Of a stretch of 64,000 bases of DNA, positions 36,319-42,444 are shown in pieces; within the stretch, counting starts at the first letter, position 1; each line of letters opens with the position of its first letter. Source of the DNA: Gongronella butleri (taxonomy: Eukaryota; Mucoromycota; Mucoromycetes; Mucorales; Cunninghamellaceae); assembly GCA_025201375.1 (NCBI GenBank), contig JAIWZP010000015.1, positions 62,001 to 126,000 of the forward strand, given 5' to 3'. The position numbers and the translations under genes are program-made. A model generated the notes under the pieces. It saw only the letters and a list, made by a program, of their open reading frames with translations. It did no database searches and was not told the DNA's origin.

Positions 36319-37875
36319 GGTTTCCATGACTTACATGGCAAGAAGAACAGAGGCACATAGTAGCCAGCTTCAATCAAAGTGTCTGCCACGACCCAGATGA
36401 TCAAGTCAATATTCTTACACACGGACAAATCGACGACATCGCGAATACGCGTGTTTTTCTCGCGCGGTCGCTTGTCTTTGAATAAAATACACGCAATGAT
36501 ACAAATAAATAAAGCAATGATCCCGAGGATGCGGTAGCACCAGGCTGCACCCAGGGTGCGATTGAGTGGCGTGATCAAAAACGGCATCACAAGCCCACCA
36601 ATGCAGCTTCCGCTGCTCGCCAGACCAAGAGCAAGCCCGCTGCGCTTGTCGAACCAAAGTGCCACTGTGCTCATGCCAACCTGTAAGCAAAAAAAAAAAA
36701 AAAAAAAAATCAGGGGTCAAGCTCAAGGAGAGGGGTGTGTGTGGACGGCGAGATCGACAAAAGGGGGGAAAACGCTTACATAAAAGATAATTGAGCAGCC
36801 AATGCCATAGATGACGCCTTGTGTCAGCAACAAATGCCACATCTGTCATGAAGAGAATTGAAATGACGCGTTAATTAGTATAAAATAGGCTTAGGACGAG
36901 AAACAGAAAAGGTTCCAAACGCGCGATGCGCGACGATGTACGCCATTCATCATCTTTTTTTTTTTTCTGCACTTTACCTCCGTGCTCAAGCTTGCCAATT
37001 CAAGACCCGCCGTGCATAGGATGGCGGCGACAAGGATGCCGCCTTTGACTCCCACAAGGGAAATCAAGATTTGCGAAAAGACGCTCATCAGATTCATCAT
37101 GCAATTGGCGGTTGCTCCGACCAGACTGAGCTGCAATGCCACGTTGGGATTCACGCCAAAGTTGTGCTGCTCGTAATAGTCCTGCATGACACCTAAGAAA
37201 AAAAAAAGCATGTCAGCAAAATGGCCGACAAAATGGATAAATCACTCCATCATGGGCTGTCTGTCCCCTAATTGCGGCCTCCTTGCCTCGGTGGGTTGGC
37301 CAATCGCATCCCCCTTTCTCCTCTCTGCCCACACCCCCTAATGCGTGCGCACTCCTTGTGTGCACGCTATTTTTCTAACAAAAGGGGTCACTCCCCCCTC
37401 CAGCGACACGACGATCACGCTTTTTTTTCTGGGTGACATACCCCTATTAAACAAACAACAAGGTCAGAAAATGAGGACTTTCAGTGTACATCCTAGGCTG
37501 GGCAAGGAACGGAGATGGGTGTATCCCCCCCTTTTTTTCGGAAAAAGAGTGGCCATGCATGGTCGATCTTTTTTTTTTCTGGCAAAATAGGCTTGCCACG
37601 ACGTTTTCTTACCATCCAGTAACAATGCCCAGACCAATGAGCTGTACAAGAAAGGCTGCGAGCACGACAAACCATCCATAGCCGCCGTCAGTCTCAAACG
37701 CGTCGTCATCGGCGTCTTGGCCGGCCTTTTTGTTCTCCATGCTGCCGGGGCAATACTTTTCCGGGTCGTTTCGATAATAGGCTTCCAGCGCCGCGTCATC
37801 GAGCTTCTTGAGCGTTGGCTGTTCGACGAGCGTCGACTCGGTCGATTGATCAAAGTACGGTGTAGGCAGCGACAT
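35593..37875 (-). CDS. MFS transporter, monocarboxylate (MCT/MCH) type, paralogue 1
   Basis: Eight exons: 37613-37875, 37442-37443, 36978-37192, 36780-36842, 36335-36680, 36153-36246, 35593-36013 as the main series, with exon 2 only 2 nt; 467 aa (seven exons listed are all). A cytosolic N-terminal tail of about 65 residues precedes 'DGGYGWFVVLAAF', the MCT-family TM1 signature, then the W-G-V-M-Q-D-Y-Y motif, 'ALWFDKRSGLALGLASSG' between TM4 and TM5, and 'GPNLAAYIESS' late. Such fungal plasma- or vacuolar-membrane carriers are related to animal monocarboxylate transporters; substrates are often unknown. Without the GG exon the frame breaks at the Trp-Gly motif. Paralogue 2 lies 1.8 kb upstream in the same orientation. 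Confidence 0.92.
37442..37443 (-). other. 2-nt microexon of MFS paralogue 1
   Basis: On the coding strand the exon GG is flanked by acceptor TTTAATAG and donor GTATGTCA. The preceding exon ends in TG and the next starts GTGTCATG, so TG+GG+GTGTCATG spells Trp-Gly-Val-Met as in the family. The flanking introns are 169 and 249 nt. Confidence 0.8.
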
Positions 37876-39641: not shown

Positions 39642-42444
39642 TTACACCTTTGCAAAGACATTGCGGTTGATACGGAGCTTCAGCACGCACAAGATCAAGG
39701 CACCGAGGAGGTACGCCGCGCCAGAGAACATCTTGTATGAAAAATAGGGCGGCGAGCTGACACTGCTCTCGATGGCACTTGCGATGTTGGGGCCTAAAAG
39801 GGCCAAAAAAAAAAAAAAAAACGAGAATTGTCAGCATATCAGCGGATCCAGTGGGAAACCTAGTTTCATGCTAGTTCCTGGAACTCCGCAAGAGCAGAAA
39901 TTCAGGGGTCAACTCAATTGCGAGGAGACCCAGCATCAATGGGCACCCAAGGGGTCCATTTTCCCTCGACAATTCAAATTAGCGCCATCCCTGGCTGCTT
40001 CAATCCTGATTTTTTTTCTGCAACCACCATTCACTTGCACCTCCCCCCCTCCCCTCCACGGATCTCCTTATTTCGTCCTTTCTGCCCATGCTTTGCTGGG
40101 ACTCAGAAAAAAAAGAGATCGACATGACAACACATCTTTTCCACCCTCCCTCCTCGATTCTGCATGATGGGAGTTGAAAGGGGCAGCTTACCAAAGACCG
40201 AGATAGCATTGCCGATAAGTAGAATGCTGAGGGCGGTGGGGAATTTCTTGAACCCGACGATTTGCGTGAGGATGGGCGACAATAATGCAAAGTAGCTGCC
40301 ACAAAAGATGCCAAAGATGGCGCTGTATGCCATGAGCACACCGTACGAGTCGGCAAAGGTCCAAATCAGCAGCGAGCTCAAGCCGCCAAGGGCGGTGAAT
40401 AGGATGTTTGTGTTGAGTTGGCCCATATAGTCGGCGGTGAAGCCTGCGAGGATGCGGCCAACGAAATTACAGGCCGAGCTGACGGCGACGAGCGCGGCAC
40501 CCTGTGTACTGTCCATATTCTTGTATGTTGCATAGCTTGGTAGGAAAAAATAGGGGATAAAATAACCAAACAACGCGACAAGCGAGCCAACGGTGAAGAG
40601 CATCATATTCACGTTCTTCAGCACCTCCAATTGAATGATGTCCGACAGCTTCTTGCGCTGACGTGGCACGGGCACACGCGGCTTGACAAGAATTGTCGCA
40701 AGCACGTCGCAGCCGAAACACACGAAGCCCAAAATACGATATGTCCAGCCGGGACCCAGTTTCGCATTAACAGCTGTCATCAAAAAGGGGAGAACGAGAC
40801 CGCCTATGCAATAAAAAGAGGGATTAGATTCACGTTGCATATCCCAGGCCATCCATGCATCGACCTTTGCCGATTAATGACATTTTATTCATGTCTCGCT
40901 GCCTCCCACTTTATTGCCCCTCATCCCCATGTTGCCCTGTTTCCCGACGCTCTTTGGATCTTCATGATGCATTGCATCCTCACAAGGGATGCGCAAATCT
41001 CCCTTGGACTCCCAAAAACTCGATTTTGACCGTGATTTCCAGGGTCAATTGCGCCGTGCATCTTGTCGATACAGGTCGATTTTGGCCATAAATTTCGCAA
41101 TTCTCTTTCATCTACGCTTTCCAAGCTTTCATTCTGTTCCTCTTTTTGCCTCTTGATGCTTACCAATGCCACTACCGGACGTGACGACGCCCAATGCCAG
41201 ACCACGTCGTTTGTTGAACCAAAGCTAAATGCGGCAAAAAGAAAAAAAAAACGAAAAATGAGAGATTGAGGATTAGCGCGAGCCATTGAGATTATACAGA
41301 ATTAGCGGCAACTTACAGGGGCGATGCTCATGATGCTGCAATACATGATGGACGCGCCAAAACCGAACAGCACGCCTTGGGACAGGTACAGGTGCCAAAT
41401 CTGAGTGGCCCAGCCTGCTGTGATCAGGCCCATGGTGACACAAATGGTGCCAATGGCCATTGCGATCCGTGTGCCGAGCAGCGACGCGATAATTTGCGCC
41501 AAGGGTGCCGACACATTGATGCAGATGAGCGCAATTGTGCTGTCCCAAACGCGGAGAATAAAAAATTAGGTTCAGCACCGTCGCTTGTACCCCGCGGAAC
41601 TCCGGACACCCAAGCGCCTTCACATGAACCACACTCCCTCTTACCCGACAAAGCTGAGATTCAGAGTCTGCGATTCACCAAAGATTTTCTCATAGTAATC
41701 TTGCATCACACCTAAAAAAAAAAAAACAGGGAAAATAGGCATACAATATAAGATGTGCGTCCAATTGAACTTGATATGAAACACAATTGGGCTCTCGTGG
41801 TTCAAATTTACCCCTACAAATAAAGAAAGAAAAAAAAAGATTTGCCCCGTCAGATCGGAATCTTGTGCAAGTGCGGCCCTGACCGATGTGGGCGGATATT
41901 CATTGTTCCAGATCAGAATTTTTTTTTTGAATTTACCAGCTTGTTGCAGTGCCCTAAATAAAGCAATGATTTCCCCACAACAAATGCATGAACCATCAAG
42001 TCAATTCGAGGATGAAACGCTGATCCCCTCGCCCCATTTTCATTGTTCTCCTTACAAAGCTGGTCACTTGGACCAAAAATGCGCCGAGAACGACCAGCCA
42101 GCCGTAGGGGCGCTCCTCAAAGTCGTCGATGTTGGTGATTTGCTTGGTCAATTCTTCTGAAATCATAAAATTGGGTCGTTGAGTGCCGCAGTCAAGTCAA
42201 TTCCTTCTTTTTTGTTGTCTTTGAGCGGCCAACGAGCTTTTTTACCTCCTGTCTCGTCGTCATCCATACCGTCCAATGGCTTGTCGTCTGTCTTTTCGTA
42301 CACCGTGGTGATGGACTCGGCGGTGCCTGCAGGAGACATTGTCTGCGGTTTTGAGGCATCATGCAAAGCATCCGCGGGCGCCGCAGCCTGTGCATTGCCC
42401 AAAGCCGTCGCTCCATGCGTCCTGTCATCAATTGAGTCGCTCAT
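39642..42444 (-). CDS. MFS transporter, monocarboxylate (MCT/MCH) type, paralogue 2
   Basis: Nine exons: 42246-42444, 42056-42156, 41937-41953, 41812-41813, 41645-41711, 41317-41539, 41164-41224, 40192-40803, 39642-39793; 477 aa. The architecture matches paralogue 1: a ~80-residue acidic Ser/Thr-rich N-tail, 'RPYGWLVVLGAFLVQ' as TM1, Trp-Gly-Val-Met-Gln-Asp-Tyr-Tyr, 'LWFNKRRGLALG', and 'GPNIASAIESS' near the end. Two consecutive microexons, 17 nt and 2 nt, build the segment G-T-A-T-S-W-G. All intron positions except those bordering the 2-nt exon differ from paralogue 1. Substrate unknown. Confidence 0.92.
41812..41813 (-). other. 2-nt microexon of MFS paralogue 2
   Basis: The exon GG is flanked on the coding strand by acceptor TTTATTTGTAG and donor GTAAATTT. 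Upstream exon 3 ends TG and downstream exon 5 begins GTGTGATG, so only inclusion of GG restores Trp-Gly-Val-Met. The flanking introns are 123 and 100 nt. Confidence 0.8.

Follow-up and report, generated by a model that had tools for sequence, protein, structure and literature searches.

Transporter genes and exon structure of the locus

The window of the current study, i.e., the whole stretch of 64,000 nucleotides that was analyzed (C18:62001-126000), is part of the 33-Mb assembly of Gongronella butleri and harbors two MFS/MCT-like transporter genes, which are located on the minus strand together with all of their features described in this section. Gene 1 (P1; 35593..37875) consists of seven coding exons with sizes of 263, 2, 215, 63, 346, 94 and 421 nt in 5' to 3' direction and encodes a protein of 467 aa. 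Gene 2 (P2; 39642..42444) comprises nine coding exons of 199, 101, 17, 2, 67, 223, 61, 612 and 152 nt, corresponding to a protein of 477 aa. The translations are letter for letter identical with the public G. butleri proteins P0121 (gene 1) and P0001 (gene 2). With GT-AG introns, only a two-nucleotide GG exon yields these proteins. The precomputed annotation of PF07690 on both host proteins documents their membership in the MFS. The closest match of gene 2 is the MCT10 chain (E-value 9e-32), followed by weaker matches to MCT8 and MCT1; it is also recognized by the lactate/MCT models of NCBIfam with scores under the curated cut-offs, and the substrate was therefore left unassigned. Judged by these matches, both host proteins are classified as MCT-like MFS transporters.

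The GG exon of gene 2 is located at 41812..41813 and supplies the third base of a Trp codon and the first base of the adjacent Gly codon (TG|GG|GT). Upstream lies a 17-nt exon (41937..41953) with the 3' end TG (...AGCTG), and the two exons are separated by intron B (41814..41936; 123 nt), which extends from GTAAATTC to TTTGTAG and interrupts the Trp codon in phase 2. Intron C (41712..41811; 100 nt, GTAAATTT...TTTTTTAG) interrupts the Gly codon in phase 1 and is followed by an exon that starts at 41711 with GTGTGATG. The equivalents in gene 1 are the GG exon at 37442..37443, intron B at 37444..37612 (169 nt) and intron C at 37193..37441 (249 nt). All four introns have GT-AG borders. The initial annotation had claimed that the TG and the next exon of gene 2 are bridged by a GG at 41812-41813 directly behind TTTGTAG, and that the tiny exon provides the same codon parts of Trp-Gly in both paralogues; sequence and coordinates confirm both statements, with positions 37443-37442 taking this role in gene 1.

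Distribution of the GG exon in the G. butleri genome

The comparison was extended to 17 genes of the transporter family, namely, P1, P2 and 15 fetched stretches around family matches. The GG exon is present in five of them, i.e., apart from genes 1 and 2 in L011 (C18:8237-8238), L012 (C45:686131-686132) and L022 (C27:83560-83561). Two further paralogues harbor a single intron at this site: L013 (C13) contains intron B alone (TG|GGGCGTG) and L018 (C28) contains intron C alone (TGGG|GCGTT), and in both the GG is embedded within a normal exon. L013 and L018 are natural controls, as each intron occurs singly at its exact position and phase.

Other family members were read by eye. L014 (C22:303296-303302, minus strand) and L015 (C23:205079-205085, plus strand) exhibit a 7-nt exon at the Trp-Gly site. 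Its sequence CTGGGGY (CTGGGGC or CTGGGGT) codes for the Ser-Trp-Gly corner, and the flanking introns occupy positions unlike those of the GG exon. Single introns were found in L016, L017, L019 and L020 at about -1, -1, 0 and -2 nt from the Trp codon, respectively. The intron positions cluster within about 8 nt at this codon, where introns may have slid or been inserted repeatedly. L021 has no intron that near to the Trp codon, and in L023 to L025 the Trp-Gly is absent at the corresponding place. Another small exon was noticed in the model of L013, where a 9-nt exon GTATTACAC (C13:561413-561421, minus strand) results in FMWYYT compared to FMYYT in the public protein P0116.

A single splicing solution for the Trp-Gly motif

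We conducted trial splicings of the five genes either with one intron, whose donor was GT or GC, or with a pair of GT-AG introns. Introns had to be at least 40 nt long, and the exon in the middle was allowed up to 60 nt. The motif SWG(V/I)MQ is restored by none of the single introns and by exactly one two-intron solution, which is the GG exon in all five cases; the frames are open over 451-477 aa. The two residues in question, W106 and G107, show no variation among the 12 proteins of alignment A1, which were picked for intactness at this site. We furthermore estimated the chance of the splice motifs from their frequency in dinucleotide shuffles of the intervening region of each gene. AGGGGT and the extended version YAGGGGTA are both found in all five regions, and their shuffle frequencies are 0.022 and 0.0012 for P2, 0.178 and 0.0104 for P1, 0.005 and 0.0010 for L011, 0.120 and 0.0046 for L012, and 0.010 and 0.0012 for L022. 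The product of the five AGGGGT values is about 2e-8, and the occurrence of the motif in all five regions is not due to chance. Very short, flanked by two complete canonical introns and needed for both reading frame and motif, the predicted GG exon qualifies as a microexon.

The same mRNA would be obtained from each gene if both outer borders (TG|GT and AG|G) were moved by one base, so that one long non-canonical TA...TA intron replaced introns B and C and no GG exon existed. This reading leaves the YAG-GG-GTA inside all five regions to a coincidence of the magnitude calculated above. It is also at odds with L013 and L018, whose single canonical introns lie exactly at the borders of the GG exon, and with the lengths of introns B and C in the five genes, which are covered by the 62-398 nt observed among 34 other introns. 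We regard a TA...TA intron as very improbable and rejected it on account of the internal motif and the lone canonical introns of the two sister genes.

Splice sites and proposed splicing mechanism

Introns B and C do not stand out from the other introns of these genes. Introns B and C, 12 in total, contribute 24 splice sites. The scores of 22 sites fall into the span of the 34 other introns; the two exceptions are the donor of intron B in L011 (3.4; range 3.8-11.4) and the acceptor of intron C in P2 (18.9; range 0.9-18.0). A candidate branch site of the type YTNAY is present in all 12 B and C introns and in 33 of the 34 others. The 12 introns are 71-314 nt long, compared to the 62-398 nt mentioned above, and the five genes with the GG exon account for 81-169 nt (intron B) and 79-314 nt (intron C).

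The close proximity of the two introns has little effect on the context of their splice sites. In all five genes, the removal of intron B leaves the nine-base donor of intron C unchanged. Likewise, the removal of intron C does not alter the context of the B acceptor (14 bases ahead of the border and four behind it) in four of five genes, with a difference at the last base in L022. Both contexts are largely unaltered because the pre-mRNA reads AG|GG|GT and the mRNA mostly TG|GG|GT. The removal of the two introns is hence compatible with either order.

Given the anatomy and the restored motif, the GG is very likely a constitutive 2-nt coding exon between two ordinary GT-AG introns, which would be recognized singly and whose consecutive removal would result in Trp-Gly. 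Short introns are recognizable across the intron. Intron B, which follows the first two bases of the Trp codon (TG), and intron C, which follows the initial G of the Gly codon two bases downstream, would each be recognized separately and then taken out one after the other in either order, since sites that are only two bases apart could hardly be bound simultaneously. The joining of TG|GG|GT would then restore the conserved Trp-Gly of the MCT-like transporter.

The consecutive excision of adjacent introns is also the hallmark of fungal stwintrons, as described in PMC6616335, which raises the possibility that one intron is nested in a splice element of the other. The chance that this applies here is minimal: an AG belongs to intron B and a separate GT to intron C, and the GG is located between the two introns, so that no splice element is interrupted. 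A stwintron was rejected on the basis of this anatomy with two complete introns.

A different role of the exon, which the initial annotation had brought up, would be its retention for regulated skipping, in which a frameshift and a premature stop would lower the amount of transporter under some condition. Skipping would indeed lead, in all five genes, to a stop codon 7 to 64 codons past the Trp, with the last exon junction following 320-941 nt downstream, and a glucose-dependent microexon is reported for Trichoderma Xlr2 in PMC11121469. However, the frameshift is expected whenever an exon with a length not divisible by three is skipped, the splice sites of introns B and C are ordinary, and L013 and L018 manage without a separate exon. 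We therefore consider regulated skipping unlikely and favor the constitutive inclusion of the GG exon.

Evolutionary history of the two introns

The alignment of the seven paralogues with at least one of the two introns provided a map of 46 introns at 26 positions, in which the models of L013 and L018 begin within the coding region and might thus miss N-terminal introns. The positions of introns B and C are the most common ones and are occupied in six of seven paralogues each (runner-up: five of seven), with intron C missing from L013 and intron B missing from L018. The initial annotation had regarded these introns as the only ones shared by genes 1 and 2, and exactly these two common positions were retrieved from the map. 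Its proposal that the exon may resist intron loss finds a hint in the wide distribution of introns B and C, but L013 and L018 document that either intron can be absent.

A phylogenetic tree of ten G. butleri proteins and 27 public relatives, which was rooted at its midpoint for drawing, places L014, L016, L017 and one relative on the far side of the root. L018 is located outside a clade of six genes (L022, P1, L012, P2, L013 and L011; fork support 98/96), within which the branching order among L022, P1 and the remaining members is not fixed by the tree. The presence of both introns requires two changes on this topology, a value that is equally low in 500 of 500 label shuffles with just two labeled genes without this state. 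The following reconstruction is accordingly based on parsimony and not on the shuffle count. According to the simplest reading, the GG exon would have been present in the ancestor of the six-gene clade, and L013 would later have been left without intron C. Intron C may be older than intron B, because L018 carries intron C alone.

Every lineage has relatives in other genera, as exemplified by Rhizopus and Hesseltinella for L022 and by Radiomyces, Blakeslea and Halteromyces for P1, which suggests that the duplications, and by extension the exon, are older than the split of the genera. The earlier suggestion that the exon predates the duplication of genes 1 and 2 is upheld by its presence in five paralogues, by its probable origin at the base of the clade and by these distant relatives. 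With respect to the borders of intron C, a GGT is common to donor (G|GT) and acceptor (G|GT) in P1, P2, L011 and L012, but not in L022. A deletion between such GGT repeats would excise intron C exactly and is a possible route of its loss in L013.

The alternative to inheritance would be a repeated origin, in which intron insertion recurred at a favored place near the codons for Trp and Gly. This scenario could draw on the slightly shifted introns of other family members that were read by eye, i.e., the 7-nt exon of L014 and L015 and the one intron just upstream of the Trp in L016, L017, L019 and L020. It is nevertheless improbable in view of the identical position and phase of introns B and C in six of seven paralogues each, and the grouping of the five two-intron genes with L013 in one clade makes one origin and one loss sufficient. 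Vertical inheritance of the GG exon hence remains the preferred explanation.

Public gene models of relatives

The introns themselves were seen in the G. butleri genome only, and the wider view is based on 128 public models of transporter-family relatives. The junction is not spanned with an intact WG in 93 of the 128 models. The site is covered with an intact WG by 35 models. In 52 others that extend across it, W or G is absent or substituted; seven contain an insertion, 21 start downstream of the site and 13 begin fewer than 20 aa ahead of it. Among this last group, P0054 has an intact WG. Deletion of the Trp affects 49 of the 106 models that span it (46%), compared to a median of 1% and a maximum of 8% over 366 other residues. 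Residues 101-105 directly before the Trp are deleted in 22-40% of the spanning models, and the Gly in 13 of 107 models. A short upstream exon, as in gene 2, may contribute to the model faults, since the faulty stretch is wider than two bases. Three of the seven insertions (P0018, P0030 and P0131) open with W-G-N or W-G-K, the result to be expected if GG|GTAA were read through.

In 16 of the 128 models, the first residue is the Met of VMQ, two residues past the Gly of the junction, and the N-terminus is thus lost (e.g., P0027, P0048, P0049, P0074, P0079, P0091 and P0108). These starts likely represent an annotation fault that extends over many genera. A related observation was made for L011 (C18:5500-11500, minus strand), whose GT-AG model with the GG exon encodes 451 aa with SWGVMQ. 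The public model P0096 has its start a short distance upstream of the junction, where its sequence is SWCVMQ, i.e., WC instead of WG.

A breakdown by lineage, in which intact models were scored by a text match and single proteins may differ from the classification of the 128 models, resulted in 1/12 for P1, 0/4 for L022, 1/7 for L011, 4/8 for L012 and 25/91 for P2 among the two-intron lineages, and in 3/5 for L013 and 1/2 for L018 among those with one intron. The sole intact model among the 12 of the P1 lineage is that of G. butleri itself. With these small numbers, the comparison between one- and two-intron lineages is in the expected direction for P1, L022 and L011 and mixed for L012 and P2.

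The pattern of gene-model faults fits, as indirect evidence, a distribution of the GG exon across the order Mucorales. A search for DNA of relatives in genome and viral collections with alignment A1 retrieved pattern matches, none of which was a relative. A more far-reaching proposal would combine an order-wide occurrence in Mucorales, over hundreds of millions of years and in at least five lineages while other introns came and went, with a function of the exon as a frameshift switch on transporter output; the odds of this combined reading are decidedly poor. At the junction, a systematic annotation fault is probable, which would mislead functional and comparative work on the family.

Comparison with known systems

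Ultra-small exons are a known kind of exon, and the GG exon of G. butleri adds to it. It was absent from the titles and the beginnings of abstracts in the literature on fungal microexons, tiny exons, stwintrons, splicing in Mucorales and Mucoromycota, and the G. butleri genome. As far as this literature was searched, the novel aspects are the base-exact sharing of the exon by five paralogues, the sister genes with one intron each and the apparently wide annotation fault. The natural series within one genome, comprising both introns, the first alone, the second alone and a 7-nt version in distant members, allows asking how the spliceosome joins a two-base exon and how such exons arise and vanish.

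The closest fungal equivalent is the 1-nt exon of the Fusarium CYP621A P450 genes, which was termed the first of its kind in a fungal gene in 2026 (PMC12940212). The same article refers to exons of 2-5 bp from Arabidopsis, Drosophila and humans. It describes an ultra-small exon (AG-G-GT) that is likewise needed for a conserved motif, was deduced from frame logic together with an intronless relative, and has been kept over many orthologues. According to this source, the CYP621A exon has a size of 1 nt, is found among orthologues of one Fusarium P450 subfamily and was documented by RNA reads, whereas the GG exon comprises 2 nt, belongs to Mucorales, occurs in five paralogues of one genome and is predicted from DNA.

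Fungal stwintrons (PMC6616335) share with the present case the adjacent canonical introns and the consecutive reactions, the latter of which we infer for introns B and C. They differ in that one intron of a stwintron splits a splice element of the other, whereas two exonic bases lie between complete introns in G. butleri. Trichoderma Xlr2 is another example of a microexon in a filamentous fungus, but its inclusion depends on glucose (PMC11121469).

The plant genes APC11 and VPS55 contain 1-nt exons (PMC4674806 and PMC8831610) and thus also represent ancient exons of nearly zero length. According to these two papers, the exons are absent together with their introns in some lineages, and reference annotations omit them and predict shorter or different N-termini, as proposed here for the transporter models. 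The differences concern the occurrence in plants, the size of 1 nt and the experimental documentation of splicing by reporter constructs (APC11) and RT-PCR. In G. butleri, in turn, there are sister paralogues with only one of the two flanking introns each.
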